Of a DNA stretch of 12,005 bases, positions 3,724-12,005 are shown piece by piece (the stretch's first letter is position 1; every line of letters starts with the position of its first letter). Below the pieces are notes generated by a model. That model had not been told where the DNA came from. It did not search any database and saw nothing but the letters and a program-made list of their open reading frames with translations. Made by a program: the position numbers and the translations under genes. Source of the DNA: Chrysochromulina parva (lineage: Eukaryota; Haptophyta; Prymnesiales; Chrysochromulinaceae); NCBI GenBank assembly GCA_002887195.1, contig PJAB01001824.1, forward strand, positions 1-12,005, in the 5' to 3' direction.

Positions 3724-3901
3724 CTATCGTCGTGCACCGAGCGGCATCGGCGCCGAGCGGTGCCGTTGCGGCGGCAGCCCCGCGTGGCCCTGCTGTGAGT
3801 AGCCGCCCTGCAGAGCTACCGCGTGGCCAACGGCGTGAGCGCCGCCTCCACGTCCGCCTCTGCCTCCGCCGCCTCCGCCGCCTCCGCCGCCGCCGCCACC
3901 T

Positions 3902-3933
<32 letters not shown>

Positions 3934-6900
3934 TCCGCCGTAGCGCGGTCCGCCGCCGCGCCCGCCCACCGCGACGGGTACTGCGCTGCCCGGACCATAG
4001 GTCGCGAGGCGGGCGGCGAGGGAGCGGCACGCCGCCTCGGAGTCACGCGAGAGCTGGCAGCGATCATGCGGCTGCAGCACGATCGGCGGCAGGTGGATCG
4101 TCGGCAGCAGTCGAGGCACGTGCGTCACGTAGGCCGGAGGAGTGTACTCCGCACCAGCGACCGTGGATTCCTTCAAGGGCGCTAGCCCATACGCGTCGCC
4201 GCCGATCGGCGCGGGGAGCGGGGAGCCCGCCGACCCCACGCGGTCACCTGTGGGGGGAGGGGGGCGATGGCGCCGTGGTGAGCACTTGCATGCGCGGGGA
4301 GCGGGGAGCCCGGCCCACCCCACGCGGTCATCAGCGGTCATCAGCGGTCATCAGCGGTCATCAGCGGTCATCAGCGGTCATCAGCGGTCCATCGGCGACC
4401 GTACCGGCCCACGACAGCGCGCCACCAAAGCCCGGCACGTACGGGCTGATGTCGAGTGGCGCTCCCGCGCTCGCAGCGCCGTGGTGAGCGGTCGCAGCGA
4501 CGATGAGCGCGCCCAGCGGTGACGAAGCCCTCGCAAAGAGGAGCTCGGCCCCAAATGCGTTTCGTCGCGCCTCCTCGGCCTCGAGCGTCGTGTCGAGCGG
4601 CGCGAGCGAGGCGCGCAGCCGTGCGGCGTCGATGAAGGGGAGGAGCGCGATCGCCTGCCAGAAGAACTTTTTGCCGTTGAGGTCCATCCGGAAGTCGATG
4701 GGGTAGAAGTCGATGATGGGCGAGGCGGGGTGCACCTGCAGGATGAGGGGCGCAATCAGGATGCGGCGCAATCAGGCGCAATCAGGGGTGCAGGATGAGG
4801 GGCGCAATCAGGCGCAATCACCATGAGGGTGCGGTAGCTCTCCGGCAATGCGGAGGGGCGCAATCAGACGCAATCAGACGCAATCAGACGCAATCAGACG
4901 CAATCAGGCGCAATCACCATGAGGGTGCGGTAGCTCTCCGGCAGTGCATGGCCGGAGGACGGTGGGAAGACCGCCATGAGCTGCTGGAAGGGTGTGAACG
5001 GCGCTCCGAGTGTGAACTGGCCGCCGGCAAACTCGTGGAGCCTGTGGGGAAGCGAAGGCGCCGTGGTGAGCACTGGCATGCTCACGAGGGCAGCTGGTGT
5101 TCTCTCTGGCGAGGGCATGGCGAGGGCATAGGGCATAGGGCAGCGAGGGCATGGCGAGGGCCTAGGGCAGCGAGGGCCTAGGGCACAAGGCATAGGGCAT
5201 AGGGCAGCGAGGGCATAGGCAGTGAGGGCGCATACCCGATGATATCAGAGGCACACGGCGCGTAGTGGAAGGGATAGAACCAGCCCCAGTCCTGCACCCC
5301 TTGGTAATAGTACATTAGGGTCCAGCAGAGGCCTTGCACATAGCACCCGACGACATAGCGCTTCATCGCCTCATCCCCCTTGTGCACCTGCAGCTTGTGC
5401 GCATAGTAACGTTCCTTCCAGCCGCTCTCGCCGTACCGCACCTGATGGACAGTGCTCATCAGTGCTCATCAGTGCTCATCAGTGCTCATCAGTGCTCATC
5501 AGCGGCCATCAGCGCTCATCAGTGGTCATCAGCGGTCATCAGCATGACGCACCACATCGGGCTGCGACGCTGCCGCCTCCTCAAGCTTCTCCAGGCGCAG
5601 CGCGAGCCTCATGTTGAAGTCGTCCACAGTGCACTCTACCGACGCCTCCCCCCCCTCTGCACCGACCCCTTCGGCGCCTAGCAGACCGTTCGCATGCTCG
5701 ACGAAGCCGGCTTCGTCAGCGCCCTTTTTGCGCGGCGCGCGCTTGCATTTGACCAAAAAGGAGCCATCGGGCTGCGAGGCGTCGTGCAGGTTGAGCAACG
5801 TCAGGTATAAGTGGAAGGACGCCTTGTGGAAGCCGGACGAAATGGACGAAGCCGGGATGGGCAGTACGGCGTCCATCACGGCCGCATCGGCGAAGGCCTT
5901 CATCGCATTCCAGAGCAGCTTCTGGCCGTTATCACGCGGCGGGTAGAGCGACCCGAAGGCGCCCGGTGCCACCTGCCCGCCCTCCTGCATCGTGCGTGCC
6001 GCCTGCGCGCGAGCTCGCCCCTCCTCGCGCCGTCGTGAGCGCTCGAAGACCTCCTCCTCGAACTGCGCCACCTCGCGCAGCACCGCCTCCGCCCGCGGCA
6101 GGTGGACGCGGCCCGCGTCCGAGATGTAGCCGCCGAGGGAGGGCAGCAACGCCTTGTAAGAGTAGATGAGCATATCGATCGCGCCATCGCGGATTTCGAG
6201 CGCCGGGATATGTGGAAGGAAGTCGTTCCCCACAAAGAAGCAGAGGAAGACGAAATCGTCGATGACGCGCTCGAGGTCGAATCCCCCGGGCACCTGTGGG
6301 GAAGAGGGAGGCGCCGTGGTGAGCGCATGCATGCAAGGGCTTGGGCTCGAGGGGGAGAGGGAGGCGCCGTGGTGAGCGCATGCATGCAAGGGCTTGGGCT
6401 CGAGAGGCGCCGTGGTGAGCTCATGCATGCAAGGGCTTGGGCTCGAGGTCGAAGCCCCCAGGCACCAGGCTCCAGTCCACCCCAGGGAGGTCATCAGGAG
6501 GTCATCAGGAGGTCATCAGGAGGTCATCAATGAGGTCATCAGGAGGTCATCAGGAGGTCATCAGGAGGTCATCAAGGAGGTCATCAGTAGTTATCAGGAG
6601 GTCATCAGGAGGTCATCAAGGAGGTCATCAAGGAGGTCATCAAGCAGGCACCAGGCTCCAGTCGACCCCTTCGAAGTACTCGCGCTGCAGGTACTCACGC
6701 AGCGTCCACACGTGCAGGAATTGGAGGGGCGTCGGGCCGGGCACGTGGCCGTTGGCGATCTTCTCCTTCTGCTTCTCCTGCGCCTTCCGGTCGAGCACGA
6801 CCTCGCGCAGGATTGAAAAGTGCTGTGGGGAGTGGGGAGTGGGGAAGAGCGCGCGCTGTGGTGAGCAGTTGCATGCCAGGCAGGTCCTCAGCGCTGTGGT

Positions 6901-7750
6901 GAGCAGTTGCATGCCAGGCAGGTCCTCCGCATGCACTCGGCGTACCGGCTCATGAGTCGCGAGCGCGAGCATGATCAGATCGGCATCGAGCCCATGGATG
7001 ACGTGGCGCGTGTCGGCCTCGTACCTACTCAGGGAGAGACGGCGCCGTGGTGAGCACTTGCATGCGAGCCGCAGCCGGGCGCGCGTGGCGCGTGTCGGCC
7101 TCGTACCCGGGAAGGGCCCGCTGCCGCCGGATATGCTCCATGATCTTGTGCTCGCCCTCGCCTGGGACCGACGCGTCCGACAGGATCACCCGAATGCCCT
7201 CGAAGCCCGGATCGGAGTGCAGCCGCTGCTGGATGTAAAACCGGAGCCAGTGGGCGAGGTCGGCCATGAACCGAGTCCCGGGCGTGATGACGTTCGAATC
7301 AAAGGGAGTCTTGTCCGAAGGCGGCGGCGGCACGCGCCCCTGCGCCGTGAGCTCCGCACGCAGCGCAAGCGTCTCGGCCGCCTTGTCGGCGCGCTCCTTG
7401 GCCGCTTTGAACCGCCGCGTGCGCTGTTGGTTCATCTTGGCGCGTGGCGCTGGCCCGTCGATGGCCATGAAGAGGAGCTTGCGCGGCCGCACGACCGAGA
7501 AGATGCGATCAATGTACTTGAAGATCGCCGCGTACATCTCCTCGTGCGTCGCGGGCGGCGGCCGGCCCTCGGGGCGCGCGCACGGGTGGATGATGCCGTT
7601 CATGTCGAGGTAGAGGCAGTCGAACTCGTGGCCGTTCGGATTCGGCTGGCTCGCGTCGACCGGCCCGTGGGCCGGGTCGTCCTCGATGCAATCGACGACG
7701 ATCTTCGGGTACTTGTCGGCCAGCCAGCGGTAGAAGGCAGGCACGCCCAT
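3724..7750 (-). CDS. XRN2: XRN2/RAT1-like 5'-3' exoribonuclease, 8 exons
   Basis: The gene encodes a 5'-3' exoribonuclease of the XRN family, which degrades 5'-monophosphate RNA; the RAT1/XRN2 branch acts in the nucleus in transcription termination and RNA turnover. I read the exons as 7750-7107, 7024-6946, 6822-6652, 6293-5553, 5441-5236, 5041-4918, 4735-4405 and 4247-3724. They join in frame to 939 residues, close to the usual XRN2 length. It starts at the family N-terminus [15 protein letters not shown]. Acidic active-site candidates are D49 ([11 protein letters not shown]), D98 ([17 protein letters not shown]), D192/E198/E200 ([13 protein letters not shown]), D228/D230 ([16 protein letters not shown]) and D322 ([12 protein letters not shown]). 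Further matches are [27 protein letters not shown] and [18 protein letters not shown]. The XRN2 CCHC zinc knuckle is missing. The tail (about residues 860-905) is a poly-Gly/RGG tract. The assignment to XRN2 rather than XRN1/XRN4 rests on length and motifs such as [11 protein letters not shown]. Confidence 0.93.
3838..3945. repeat. CCG/CCT trinucleotide repeat in XRN2 exon 8
   Basis: GCCGCC and TCC triplets on plus encode the poly-Gly/Arg tract at the XRN2 C-terminus. The run is long and likely length-variable. Confidence 0.9.
4269..4292 (-). mobile_element. Introner-like core, XRN2 intron 7
   Basis: Identical over 24 nt to the intron 1 copy. Roughly 38-bp copies of the exon 8 start flank it (4292-4330 inside the intron, 4209-4246 in the exon). 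Confidence 0.6.
4324..4388 (-). repeat. 10-bp tandem array in XRN2 intron 7
   Basis: About six units of TGATGACCGC on the sense strand (GCGGTCATCA on plus). Confidence 0.95.
4736..4917 (-). other. XRN2 intron 6 (182 nt)
   Basis: Donor GTGATT, acceptor CCTGCAG. Splicing gives [18 protein letters not shown]. It consists of CTGATTGCGT-type 10-bp repeats. About 100 nt downstream of the true donor it contains a second copy of the last 30 nt of exon 6 with the same donor (about 4815-4850, against 4913-4948), so a competing splice donor exists. Confidence 0.88.
4745..4917 (-). repeat. 10-bp tandem array in XRN2 intron 6
   Basis: Units of CTGATTGCGT or CTGATTGCGC on the sense strand, in two blocks separated by the copy of the exon 6 end. 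Confidence 0.9.
5057..5080 (-). mobile_element. Introner-like core, XRN2 intron 5
   Basis: The sense strand reads CATGCCAGTGCTCACCACGG then CGCC, one mismatch from the intron 1 and 7 copies. It sits just upstream of the CCCCACAG acceptor. Confidence 0.6.
5108..5225 (-). repeat. Short tandem repeats in XRN2 intron 5
   Basis: Interleaved GAGGGCATGGC and TAGGGCA units on the plus strand. Unlike the other arrays, these lack CTGAT. Confidence 0.85.
5442..5552 (-). other. XRN2 intron 4 (111 nt)
   Basis: Donor GTGCGT, acceptor CCATCAG. Splicing gives [17 protein letters not shown]. Apart from its ends the intron is almost entirely 10-bp tandem repeats (CTGATGACCG, then CTGATGAGCA on the sense strand). 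The sequence after the acceptor again begins GTGCG, like the donor. Confidence 0.9.
5449..5543 (-). repeat. 10-bp tandem array in XRN2 intron 4
   Basis: About nine units of AGTGCTCATC or AGCGGTCATC on plus; each unit carries CTGAT on the sense strand. Confidence 0.95.
6310..6429 (-). mobile_element. Introner-like core, three copies, XRN2 intron 3
   Basis: Copies at 6310-6333, 6363-6386 and 6406-6429 read CATGCATGxGCTCACCACGG then CGCC on the sense strand. Each is preceded by GAGCCCAAGCCCTTG. They are tandem expansions of one element next to the acceptor. Confidence 0.6.
6485..6645 (-). repeat. 10-11-bp tandem array in XRN2 intron 3
   Basis: About fourteen units of AGGAGGTCATC on plus (TGATGACCTCC on the sense strand), with a few variants such as AGTAGTTATC. 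Confidence 0.95.
6823..6945 (-). other. XRN2 intron 2 (123 nt)
   Basis: Donor GTACGC, acceptor CCCCACAG. Splicing gives [14 protein letters not shown], matching the family. The intron holds two tandem copies of a 38-bp unit (6853-6890 and 6891-6927), each with the shared core, followed by a C-rich tract before the acceptor. Confidence 0.9.
6853..6927 (-). mobile_element. Introner-like core, two tandem copies, XRN2 intron 2
   Basis: Two copies (6853-6875 and 6891-6913) of a core variant reading CATGCAACTGCTCACCACAG on the sense strand. Each lies in a 38-bp tandem unit with the preceding GGACCTGCCTGG. Confidence 0.6.
7025..7106 (-). other. XRN2 intron 1 (82 nt)
   Basis: Donor GTACGA, acceptor GAGTAG. 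Splicing restores [19 protein letters not shown], the conserved XRN sequence. The first 23 nt of the intron are an exact copy of the first 23 nt of exon 2; including the preceding G, a 24-bp perfect direct repeat lies at 7084-7107 and 7002-7025. The unique part in between carries the shared intron core at 7041-7064. Confidence 0.9.
7041..7064 (-). mobile_element. Introner-like core, XRN2 intron 1
   Basis: The sense strand reads CATGCAAGTGCTCACCACGG then CGCC. It is identical over 24 nt to the copy at 4269-4292 in intron 7. Mobility is inferred from the dispersed copies; no terminal inverted repeats or coding capacity are visible. Confidence 0.6.
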
Positions 7751-9569: not shown

Positions 9570-10736
9570 ATGCACGCCCAGTTTTCAGCAGCTGTCTTCG
9601 CCGAGCCAGGGCCGGAGCCAGAACCTGCGCCGGTTCTCCTGGAACCCAAGCCGGCGTCAAAGATCTTCCGGCGTCAAAAGGTCGTCGAGCAGTCCGTTGA
9701 GAGCATCAAGGCCGTCGGAACCGCCACGTTCGACGGCGTCAAGGCAGTTGGAATCGGCGTCAAGGCCATCGGCGCTGGGACCATGAGCGGCGGCAAGATT
9801 GGCGCCAAGCTCACGTCGCCCTTGAGTCGTCGCCCTTACATAGCCGAGGCCGGCGCGGCCACGGTGGACGGCGCCAAGGCTGTCGGCACGGCGACGGTGG
9901 ATGGCGCCACCTTTGTGGGCCAGAAGAGCCTTGAGGGTGCCAAGGTCGTCGGTTCGGCCACGGTCCACGGTGCCAAGGCCACCGGCGCCCTCGTGGCCAC
10001 AGGGCTCGAGAAGACGGGCGTGACTGCGGGCTTCCAAGCCGTCTTTGGCGAGGGCGTCGACAAGTCGGATGCGGGGCTAGAGGCGGCGTTTGCCACGGTG
10101 GACACAAACCAGAGCGGCAGCATCGATGCCGCCGAGATGAGGGCGTACATCCGGGGCGTGTACGACAAGGGCCTCGACGACAAGACCGTCGACGACATGA
10201 TGATGGCCGCGGACGCCATGATCTGGCTTCGTAATAAGGAAGGAGAGATCGGCGTTTCGGAGTTCAAACTCATCATGCGCGCCGGGCCGCATAAAAAGTC
10301 GGATGGGGCCATCGGCAAACACGTCGATGCGGGCGTGGCGGCCACCGTGGGCGGCGTCAAGGCGATCGGAGATGGCGCCGTCTTCATCGGCACGCAGTCT
10401 GTCGAGGGCATCAAGGCCATCGGAGCGGCGACGGTGGACGGCGCCAAGGCTGTGGGGAAGGGCGCCAAGGCTGTGGGCACCTGCCTTCGCTTCAATGGGG
10501 ACGCTGATCATAAGAGTGACGTGTTGTATGGACCGTTCCCGTTGGAGCCCGTTCATTTGGATTCTTCCCCCAAGTTGGAGCCCGTTCATTTGGATTCTTC
10601 CCCCAAGATGGAGCCCGTTCATTTGGATTCTTCTCCCAAGTCGGAGTCCCTCGTGCAGAAGGCTAAGGGGGTGGCTCAGCTGCCACCTCAAGAAGGCGGG
10701 GCCATCTCCGACGACGAGCCCCCGCCCCTCGAGTGA
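9570..10736 (+). CDS. EF-hand protein with 11-residue GAKAVG repeats
   Basis: A 388-residue protein not matched to a named family. Residues 101-155 are five exact-length 11-mers (GAKAVGTATVD, GATFVGQKSLE, GAKVVGSATVH, GAKATGALVAT, GLEKTGVTAGF); related copies lie at 46-68 and 262-303. This spacing is typical of synuclein- or perilipin-like amphipathic 11/3 helices that lie on membranes or lipid droplets (inference). Between the arms is an EF-hand pair: loop 1 DTNQSGSIDAAE (178-189) has canonical D1 and E12, while loop 2 (215-231) is canonical only if five residues, MIWLR, are skipped. Three copies of LEPVHLDSSPK follow (325-357), then an acidic end. The role may be Ca2+-regulated membrane binding. 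A second start is possible: ATG at 9469 spliced with GTGAGC to TTTTCAG would give MMRIDR-AAVFAEPG. Confidence 0.75.
   Translation: MHAQFSAAVFAEPGPEPEPAPVLLEPKPASKIFRRQKVVEQSVESIKAVGTATFDGVKAVGIGVKAIGAGTMSGGKIGAKLTSPLSRRPYIAEAGAATVDGAKAVGTATVDGATFVGQKSLEGAKVVGSATVHGAKATGALVATGLEKTGVTAGFQAVFGEGVDKSDAGLEAAFATVDTNQSGSIDAAEMRAYIRGVYDKGLDDKTVDDMMMAADAMIWLRNKEGEIGVSEFKLIMRAGPHKKSDGAIGKHVDAGVAATVGGVKAIGDGAVFIGTQSVEGIKAIGAATVDGAKAVGKGAKAVGTCLRFNGDADHKSDVLYGPFPLEPVHLDSSPKLEPVHLDSSPKMEPVHLDSSPKSESLVQKAKGVAQLPPQEGGAISDDEPPPLE
10543..10641 (+). repeat. 33-bp coding tandem repeat, three copies
   Basis: Encodes three LEPVHLDSSPK-type units with few substitutions (L or M at the first position), close to identical in DNA. 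This indicates recent expansion. Confidence 0.95.
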
Positions 10737-10897
10737 AGAGTCGCTGTGAAGAGTCGCTGCGAAGAGTCATCTCCGACGACGAGCCCCCGCCCCTCGAGTG
10801 AAGAGTCGCTGTGAAGAGTCGCTGTGAAGAGTCATCTCCGACGACGAGCCCCCGCCCCTCGAGTGAAGAGTCGCTGTGAAGAGTCGCTGTGAAGAGT
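10703..10897 (+). repeat. 65-bp tandem repeat spanning the stop codon, three copies
   Basis: Units start at 10703, 10768 and 10833. Each contains the last coding bases (CATCTCCGACGACGAG, then the CCCCTCGAGTGA stop) and GAAGAGTCGCTGT units. Only the first copy is translated, because the unit length is not a multiple of three and the stop is in the first unit. Confidence 0.95.
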
Positions 10898-11335
10898 CTT
10901 CAGGTGACACGGCTTCGTTCCTCTAAAAGGCGACCTATTGCTGTGGAGCCGCCCCTGGCGCTCCAGCTGTCAGTTCGTGTGACGCGAGCGTGCCGCATGC
11001 CCGCGGACCATGCCCATGGCGCGATACGCGATAGGATCTGGGCCGGGTAAACTCATCAACATGTCGTCATGAATCAATCTGAATCATATCGAAGCGTCTA
11101 GGGAAAGTCTCCATTTGTGTTTTCGGAACACGCGGTGGGTGGCTTTTCGCTCGACCGCCCAGGCCCACGCGCCACGGCTCGAGTGTACTACAGTAACTCA
11201 ACACGATAGTAGCATGCAGTTGCACAGATCATTTCGTCATTGCATCTGCCCCAGTGTCTCCAGGCACCAGGGCGTCATTGCGCTGCTGACAGGACTACGT
11301 AACTTACGTACCTTCTGGCCCAATCAGGTGGAAGG
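10898..11335. other. Convergent 3' intergenic region
   Basis: Lies between the ends of a plus-strand and a minus-strand gene. I see no repeat array, clear coding exon, tRNA or other RNA gene. Both 3' untranslated regions presumably share it. Confidence 0.5.
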
Positions 11336-12004
11336 TCATTGCCAACCGCGCGGAGGCCCCTGGAAGGGCGGGCGCATGGGAAAGCTTCCCATGTTGCCGC
11401 CGCCCATGCTACCACCAATGTTGCCACCCATGTCGCCGCCCCCCCAGCCGCCACTCATCATGCCGCTCCCCATGCCGCCCCCCATGCCGCCCCCCATACC
11501 ACCCCCAATACCGCCCCCCATGCCGCCCATTGGCCTAATGCCACCACCCATTCCGCCACCCCCCATTCCGCCACCCATTCCACCCCCCATGCCGCCACCC
11601 ATGGCGCCACCGCCGAAACCACCGGCGCCGTGTTGAACGCCACCGGCTCCGTGCGGAACGCCACCGGCGCCGTGTTGACCGCCGCCGAAACCACCGCCCA
11701 TGCCGCCCCCCATGCCGCCGCCGAAGCCGCCGCCCATGCCGCCGAAGCCGCCGCCCATGCCACCGAAGCCGCCGCCGAAGCCGCCGCCCATGCCGCCGCC
11801 CATGCCGCCGCACATACAGCCGCCCATGCCGCCCATGGCACCGCCACCAATGGCACCGCCCATGGCACCCATGCCTATGGCACCCATGCCTATGGCACCG
11901 CCACCGATGCCGCCGCCGCCCATGCCGCCGCCGCCCATGCCGCCGCCGCCCATGCCGCCGCCGCCCATGCCGCCGCCGCCCATGCCGCCGCCGCCCATGC
12001 CGCC
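11336..12004 (-). CDS. Gly/Met-rich repeat protein, 5' end outside the window
   Basis: The frame is open from the window edge to a TGA at 11336, at least 220 residues. It is almost entirely MGGG and MGGGG repeats, with short HGAGGV units (three copies near 11630-11680), FGG stretches and a non-repetitive end: GSFPMRPPFQGPPRGWQ. Such compositions occur in RNA-binding and phase-separating proteins and in some cell-wall or biomineral proteins; nothing here decides between them. The plus strand over the same bases gives a Pro-rich frame that stops inside the repeats at 11634, so I favour minus. Whether the missing N-terminus carries a domain is unknown. Confidence 0.6.
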   Translation of the reverse strand, partial: GGMGGGGMGGGGMGGGGMGGGGMGGGGMGGGGIGGGAIGMGAIGMGAMGGAIGGGAMGGMGGCMCGGMGGGMGGGFGGGFGGMGGGFGGMGGGFGGGMGGGMGGGFGGGQHGAGGVPHGAGGVQHGAGGFGGGAMGGGMGGGMGGGMGGGGMGGGIRPMGGMGGGIGGGMGGGMGGGMGSGMMSGGWGGGDMGGNIGGSMGGGNMGSFPMRPPFQGPPRGWQ

Positions 12005-12005
12005 C
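11390..12005. repeat. Degenerate GCCGCC/CAT codon repeats
   Basis: Trinucleotide-based repeats (GCCGCCGCCCAT on plus, most regular at 11905-12005) underlie the Gly/Met-rich protein. Confidence 0.9.

Follow-up and report, generated by a model that had tools for sequence, protein, structure and literature searches.

A 25-nt core, GCATGCAAGTGCTCACCACGGCGCC, very probably defines a dispersed, introner-like family in the haptophyte Chrysochromulina parva, the copies of which were inserted in either orientation with the duplication of 15–40 nt of target. At the level of sequence, the dispersal of the core, its sharp edges, the long direct repeats that accompany it and the absence of inverted repeats are evident. 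The core was noticed in the gene for the 5'-3' exoribonuclease XRN2, located on the minus strand of the window, by which we mean the whole analysed stretch of 12,005 nt, which is one entire contig (PJAB01001824.1).

The XRN2 gene model (Table 1) has seven introns, all of the GT-AG type, and its spliced product of 939 aa is identical in 65% to a metagenomic (JGI) protein, in 63% to the protein of Prymnesium parvum and in 61% to that of Chrysotila carterae. In the alignment with haptophyte XRN2 proteins, junctions 1–6 were free of gaps, and the alignment was loose at junction 7, where the protein is poorly conserved. The sequence CATGCAAGTGCTCACCACGG occurs in the window eight times with up to three mismatches (starts at 4273, 5061, 6314, 6367, 6410, 6856, 6894 and 7045), as compared with a mean of 0 per shuffle in 200 shuffles of the window. 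All eight copies are on the minus strand, which is the sense strand of XRN2. The earlier note on this DNA had counted eight copies in introns 1, 2, 3, 5 and 7, and our re-count returned the same distribution (1, 2, 3, 1 and 1). Its title, which spoke of four of the seven XRN2 introns, was wrong, as five carry the core, and its own text had this right.

Table 1. XRN2 and its core-bearing and related features in the window, with the duplications found beside them
Feature	Position	Strand	Content	Flanking duplication
XRN2 (5'-3' exoribonuclease)	3724..7750	-	8 exons, 7 introns; from gene model, homologues and alignment	
Intron 1 (82 nt)	7025..7106	-	one core copy, 7041-7064	22 nt, perfect: 7085-7106 and 7003-7024
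Intron 2	6823..6945	-	core copies 6852-6875 and 6890-6913, within a 38-nt tandem repeat	exon repeat looked for at the flanks, none found
Intron 3	6294..6651	-	core copies 6310-6333, 6363-6386 and 6406-6429; 11-nt CTGATGACCTC array	core part, 26 nt, two mismatches: 6269-6294 / 6441-6466; array part, 25 nt: 6645-6669 / 6459-6483
Intron 5	5042..5235	-	one core copy, 5057-5080, 15 nt upstream of the intron end CCCCACAG	direct repeat looked for, none found
Intron 6	4736..4917	-	no core; CTGATTGCGC array	40 nt of exon and donor sequence: 4811-4850 / 4907-4946
Intron 7	4248..4404	-	CTGATGACCG array followed by one core copy, 4269-4292	exon sequence, 38/39 nt, one indel: 4292-4330 and 4209-4246
Core piece in exon 7 (14 nt)	4476..4489	-	GCTCACCACGGCGC, within the coding sequence of exon 7	

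In intron 1, the duplicated exon sequence starts with the donor GT. Both core copies of intron 2 terminate in CAGCGC, not in GGCGCC. Intron 3 looks like two neighbouring insertions, each with an exon duplication of its own, one around the core copies and the other around the array. Intron 6 is similar in its apparent anatomy to the core-bearing introns, with a different cargo. The core piece in exon 7 is possibly a remnant that was left unspliced; the region around it is shorter in most of the XRN2 homologues in the alignment. The array of intron 4 (window 5457-5506) matched a C/D-box snoRNA family with 27.6 bits, below the gathering threshold of 54, probably because its repeated TGATGA resembles a C box. 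Beyond this match, the Rfam search of the window and of four other loci (L116, L132, L138 and L154; E ≤ 0.1) returned nothing, and the core was rejected as a known structured RNA, having matched no Rfam family.

The proposal of the earlier note that the core represents an introner family gained support from the genome-wide core search that it had named as a test beforehand. In 45.07 Mb of genome (2,199 contigs), the inner 16 bases of the core occur in 557 exact copies, and the 24-mer in 282 exact copies and in 1,353 copies with up to two mismatches; the reversed controls of the 16-mer and of the two-mismatch search gave 0. The copies thus number in the hundreds and include those on other contigs. 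The sequence TGCTCACCACGGCGCC followed within 3–25 nt by CACAGGT was found 311 times (reversed control 0). Apart from XRN2, the core is hosted by genes with five kinds of Pfam domain.

The extent of the constant unit was judged from 99 exact 16-mers in loci L001-L113, 98 from the list of the 16-mer search and one from the CACAGGT list. All 100 listed 16-mer places were taken except C112, a second copy; the rows of L006 and L008 (overlaps), L103 (overlaps L102, with one copy lost) and L049-L073 (viral loci) were left out. As the 16-mer was the criterion of selection, base conservation is informative solely outside of it. The frequency of the commonest base is 0.90 at position -9 and 0.43 at position -10, and downstream of GGCGCC the copies have nothing in common but a pyrimidine-rich stretch, which sets the constant unit at 25 nt. 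A pyrimidine-rich YAG follows within 45 nt in 78 of the 99. In three loci (L041, L088 and L111), several copies terminate in CCCTAATTAG rather than in CCCCACAG; in L041, this ending is common to two adjacent introns, which suggests local copying from a single source. Two copies on different contigs (L025:3950 and L081:218) have an extra upstream stretch and a ATCCCATCTCCCCACAG tract in common, and are a possible source–daughter pair.

Exact 16-mers were also present in 25 stretches of IMG/VR contigs, roughly the number that we would estimate chance to give in a collection of this size. The longer core was found there in L059 alone, as a copy with CACAGGT within a haptophyte-like terminal stretch (L059:4200-4554, the last few hundred bases), while the remaining frames looked bacterial or phage-like by eye. 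L059 was rejected as a viral introner, since its core copy lies at the extreme contig end in haptophyte-like DNA; it is probably a chimeric assembly, and suggests that a second sample also contains the core family. The longer core was not found in the prokaryote contigs, nor the form-B 21-mer (see below) in the viral contigs.

The earlier note described the elements as lacking terminal repeats. This holds for inverted repeats, but long flanking direct repeats had been overlooked, among them those at XRN2 introns 1, 3 and 7, as had the core piece in exon 7. We compared 95 nt upstream with 75 nt downstream of each single core, without gaps, against a null of 555 mismatched upstream/downstream pairs. 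The sample of 111 single core copies combined loci from the exact 16-mer with loci from the form-B pattern; 31 clusters of several cores and 6 single copies whose flanks were short were left out. The pattern used in this comparison matched 183 times in the fetched sequence read forward and once in the same sequence read backwards. A direct repeat above the 99th percentile of the null was found at 73 of the 111 copies, and one above the maximum of all 555 null pairs at 54. A significant repeat was absent from 38 copies, which may be old insertions. A repeat shorter than the 15–40 nt of the strong cases would miss the threshold.

The strong repeats (n = 58) are 15–40 nt long (median 25.5), with some lengths inflated by junction overlaps because repeats were extended maximally; their mean identity is 97%, and 28 are perfect. 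The last figure suggests recent activity, so that one may expect to find insertion polymorphism in cultures or metagenomes. The inserts between these repeats measure 29–106 nt (median 52); in total, a median of 77 nt was added. The length of the duplication is thus broad and not fixed, and both ends of the insert vary. The ends of the 58 inserts showed no inverted complementarity (a mean of 5.59 matches out of 15 versus 5.50 in shuffled ends; one of the 58 exceeded the 99th percentile). Nor did the fetched loci contain pairs of opposite-strand cores up to 300 nt apart.

Sense copies fall into two predicted forms, which differ in the splice site that the target would supply. In form A, the duplication starts at, or a few bases before, the GT that adjoins the CACAG of the element; the insert would end with a pyrimidine tract followed by CACAG, and a GT taken from the duplication would make the first repeat copy the source of the donor. 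In form B, the element starts with GTACGTTGATTGCCACTGATGACCTGCCTTGCATGC and the duplication terminates in AG; the insert would begin with GTACGTTGATTGCCACTGATGACC, and the AG recruited from the end of the duplication would make the second repeat copy the source of the acceptor. One 20-base piece from form B occurs 72 times in the genome, of which 51 were displayed, from 40 fetched stretches.

An exact GT-AG intron, the removal of which restores the presumed empty site, could be drawn in 47 of the 73 repeat-flanked copies, as compared with 5 of 73 on the opposite strand; of the remaining copies, 9 allowed GC-AG only and 17 neither. Ten spliced flanks from 45 spliceable loci were compared with Pfam: six matched a domain and four matched nothing. 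In five of the ten, the domain ran continuously through the predicted junction (metallophosphatase, gelsolin, PP2C, GH127 and fatty acid hydroxylase); the fatty acid hydroxylase match, which represents form B, scored slightly under the Pfam cut-off. The motif TGCTCAC of the core resembles a branch site and lies a median of 27 nt upstream of the first YAG (88 copies). Splicing in silico left the joint frames open in 39 of 45 loci versus 34 and 33 in the shifted frames, a test that is uninformative because several frames stay open in GC-rich DNA; with the intron kept, 23 of the 45 loci were open, and the longest ORF at random places had a median of 443 codons. We infer that the core-bearing segments are spliced out and that the branch point lies in the core, the A of TGCTCAC being the predicted position.

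The earlier note also stated that all copies share one orientation relative to the gene. This is true of XRN2 (8/8 sense) but probably not of the genome, in which seven repeat-flanked copies (L014, L015 at 3936, L024, L037, L042, L153 and L019) each lie within an open frame on the strand opposite to the core, three of them with independent support for the coding strand. Six were chosen by eye from the 26 repeat-flanked copies without an exact GT-AG intron, and the seventh, L019, came, likewise by eye, from a list of 21 exact copies that lack an acceptor and that also include L014, L015, L024 and L042. The added lengths (60, 45, 63, 66, 69, 66 and 42 nt) are all multiples of three, which in a set chosen post hoc corresponds to a chance of 0.0005 (0.0014 for 6/6 if L037 is omitted); among all 26 copies without an exact GT-AG intron, 11 are multiples of three, showing no bias. 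The antisense core is translated as RRGEHLHA or GAVVSTCM, typically flanked by two copies of the duplicated peptide.

SAM and EF-hand domains support the coding strand in L019, and a GH127 domain together with homologues does so in L037; for L154, a longer version of L153, the support comes from one homologue aligned on either side of the insertion. Support is weak for L015 and consists of ORF length alone for L014 and L024, where length by itself says little given the long ORFs of random places. L042 is doubtful, its opposite-strand frame of 94 aa being shorter than the same-strand one of 134 aa. L037 is borderline because CACAG sits in its second repeat copy, and the repeat score of L019 (15) is between the 95th (12) and the 99th (25) percentile of random places. 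An empty allele was looked for among proteins of other strains, and none was seen. The same antisense insertion as in L037 is present in P0121, a metagenomic homologue with 98% identity; P0127 has no counterpart of it, but its alignment is loose at this point (42% identity over 34% of the query). A 60-nt tandem pair of similar look in L018 stands outside the antisense count.

The antisense copies end inside the core or no more than 8 nt from GGCGCC. As these ends carry no pyrimidine tract with CACAG, the 3' end of the intron does not seem to be a preferred end of the insert. Taken together, the seven copies make insertion seem independent of orientation and the core itself seem to be the moving unit, and so indicate that it would move irrespective of splicing and orientation.

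Duplications of this type were not confined to the core. With a relaxed complexity filter, strict filters being too harsh, 67 repeat pairs were counted in 168 kb versus 13 in shuffled blocks; 17 of them contained the core and 50, many of which are ordinary tandem repeats, did not. GT-AG compatible arrangements were found in 8 of the 50 core-less pairs versus 0 of the 13 controls. As such duplications are also seen where the core is missing, it may be cargo and not the driver. Duplications of about 25–50 nt around other cargo, similar in anatomy to the core insertions, were seen at window 4811-4946 and 6459-6669, and further ones at L015:4183-4320, L015:3395-3525, L028:4144-4265 and L023:3876-3983. 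Their cargo consists of arrays of 10–11-nt units, CTGATGACC or CTGATTGCGC, in which the repeated unit contains a branch-point-like CTGAT or CTGAC, or of CCCTAA-like repeats. Elsewhere in the window, outside XRN2, positions 1379-1536 hold TGACCTAAC/TGCCCTAAT arrays with 26-nt duplicated segments on either side. Three near-identical copies with a spacing of 65 nt (10703-10901) span, by eye, the stop codon of a plus-strand ORF with repeated GAKAVG-type motifs, and a long CCGCCGCCCATG-type repeat stretch (11385-12005) continues off the contig end.

In the scheme that we propose, the core with variable flanks would insert into coding DNA in either orientation, the target being duplicated over 15–40 nt. 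A sense insertion would become a spliceosomal intron because the core would supply the branch-site-like TGCTCAC, acting about 27 nt upstream of the AG, and the missing splice site would come from the duplicated target. Antisense insertions would persist as in-frame peptide insertions. As to the route, a short piece with the core may have been captured at a break with its strands cut 15–40 nt apart, fill-in having followed; this has in our estimate a little less than an even chance of being correct. A nuclease, an integrase or a repair pathway would be the candidate agent. The lack of inverted ends, the broad duplications, the variable insert ends and the presence of other cargo favour such break capture over a transposase acting on fixed ends.

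Alternatively, short intron-derived RNAs may have been reverse-transcribed into a nicked target in the manner of LINEs and SINEs, with two nicks giving rise to long, variable duplications. We consider this unlikely, though far from negligible. It agrees with the breadth of the duplication lengths and with form A, in which the 3' end is fixed (CACAG) and the 5' start variable. At the 3' junction of form B, element and target may share bases, 7 nt in L138 as counted by eye and 3–5 nt in L098, L133, L146, L152 and L153; such an overlap fits break capture and an RNA route alike. The constant 3' end and 5' truncation of a target-primed element are seen in form A, in which splicing would select the 3' end; in form B and in antisense copies, the 3' ends vary. 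Against an RNA route, the fixed end of form B is on the opposite side, and the ends of the seven antisense copies, presumably free from splicing selection, lie in or close to the core.

It is improbable that there is no mobile unit at all, the core being a selected branch-site consensus within introns that arose from local tandem duplication and random filler. The excess of core-less repeat pairs, with their GT-AG compatible fraction, would fit this, as would the pyrimidine tracts downstream of the core, which differ among the copies with perfect repeats. Against it, the same sharp-edged 25 nt also occurs in antisense orientation within coding frames, where it should be out of reach of splicing selection, and we know of no precedent for a branch-site consensus of 25 nt. 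A conventional non-autonomous DNA transposon, that is, a MITE-like introner moved by a transposase, seems a still poorer candidate. The apparently orientation-independent insertion with target duplication would suit it, and target site duplications, terminal inverted repeats or both have been described in 59.2% of 130 judgeable introner families (PMC9860276), but the 58 inserts have neither inverted ends nor a fixed duplication length, their ends vary, and no opposite-strand core pairs were found within 300 nt. Finally, local duplication confined to XRN2, the case that the earlier note had set against its own proposal, has practically no chance of being true: the tandem core copies in introns 2 and 3 would agree with it, but it is refuted by the hundreds of copies elsewhere in the genome, on other contigs.

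In Aureococcus and Micromonas introners, the target duplication can supply one splice site, as it appears to do here. Similarly, tandem exon duplication creates splice sites from duplicated exon sequence with AG|GT, and duplicated exon sequence is what would yield them in the family described here. Unlike in intron gain of this type (e.g. PMC4974935), the duplication here brackets a foreign insert that is common across the genome. The introners of Aureococcus, as characterised in PMC7789003, have inverted repeats at their termini and direct repeats whose length is constant, neither of which was found here.

Closest in kind are the introners with co-opted splice sites described by Gozashti et al. 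(2022, PMC9860276), which are dispersed intron-forming repeats in which the target duplication contributes one splice site; co-option is known there in both directions, with the element carrying either the 3' or the 5' site. According to that description, the duplications of previously characterised families measure 3–9 bp, those of the examples given are 4 bp (Symbiodinium and Chrysochromulina) and 8 bp (Aureococcus) long, and a family from a Chrysochromulina (haptophyte) metagenome genome has no inverted repeats and 4-bp duplications. Judged by these published descriptions, the core family is set apart by variable duplications of 15–40 nt, by both splice arrangements within one family and by antisense copies that appear as peptide insertions. 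The introner elements of Amoebophrya are likewise repeated introns of a protist with direct repeats at exon boundaries, but are described in PMC7789003 as having inverted repeats of 8–20 nt, direct repeats of 3–5 nt and many non-canonical splice sites, whereas here no inverted repeats, direct repeats of 15–40 nt and mostly GT-AG introns (predicted) were found. Duplications of 10–15 bp are cited in the same paper for MITEs in general.

The neointrons of Daphnia pulex have exon-sequence direct repeats at both ends, as here, and a mean length of 77.7 bp (PMC4202315), close to our median added length. Their repeats, attributed to staggered double-strand breaks, are 4–12 bp long, in contrast to the 15–40 nt of our 58 strong cases, and the passages of PMC4202315 on these introns do not describe a shared cassette comparable to the recurrent 25-nt core. 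In the passages of the open-licence literature that we covered, no report of introner duplications as long as 15–40 nt was found. We read the sequences as those of an introner family with what seem to be unusually long and variable duplications, which may already be listed in an introner catalogue.

A broader reading is possible, if on the unlikely side: the alga may have an insertion activity that cuts the strands of coding DNA 15–40 nt apart and inserts short cassettes, namely the 25-nt core, CTGATGACC arrays and CCCTAA-like repeats. Introns would then be a by-product of a sense landing at which the target supplied GT or AG. In size and geometry, such cassette insertion would be closer to CRISPR spacer integration, with its short insert and target duplication of about 30 nt, than to any intron-making transposon that we know.

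How introns come to be gained in bursts has long been asked, and for algae a DNA transposon that leaves short duplications is usually invoked. The tiny unit, the long and variable duplications, the two opposite ways of completing the splice sites and the antisense copies point to a different route of insertion. Since the antisense copies appear to show insertion before splicing selection, the mechanism of insertion may be read in this alga apart from the outcome of splicing.
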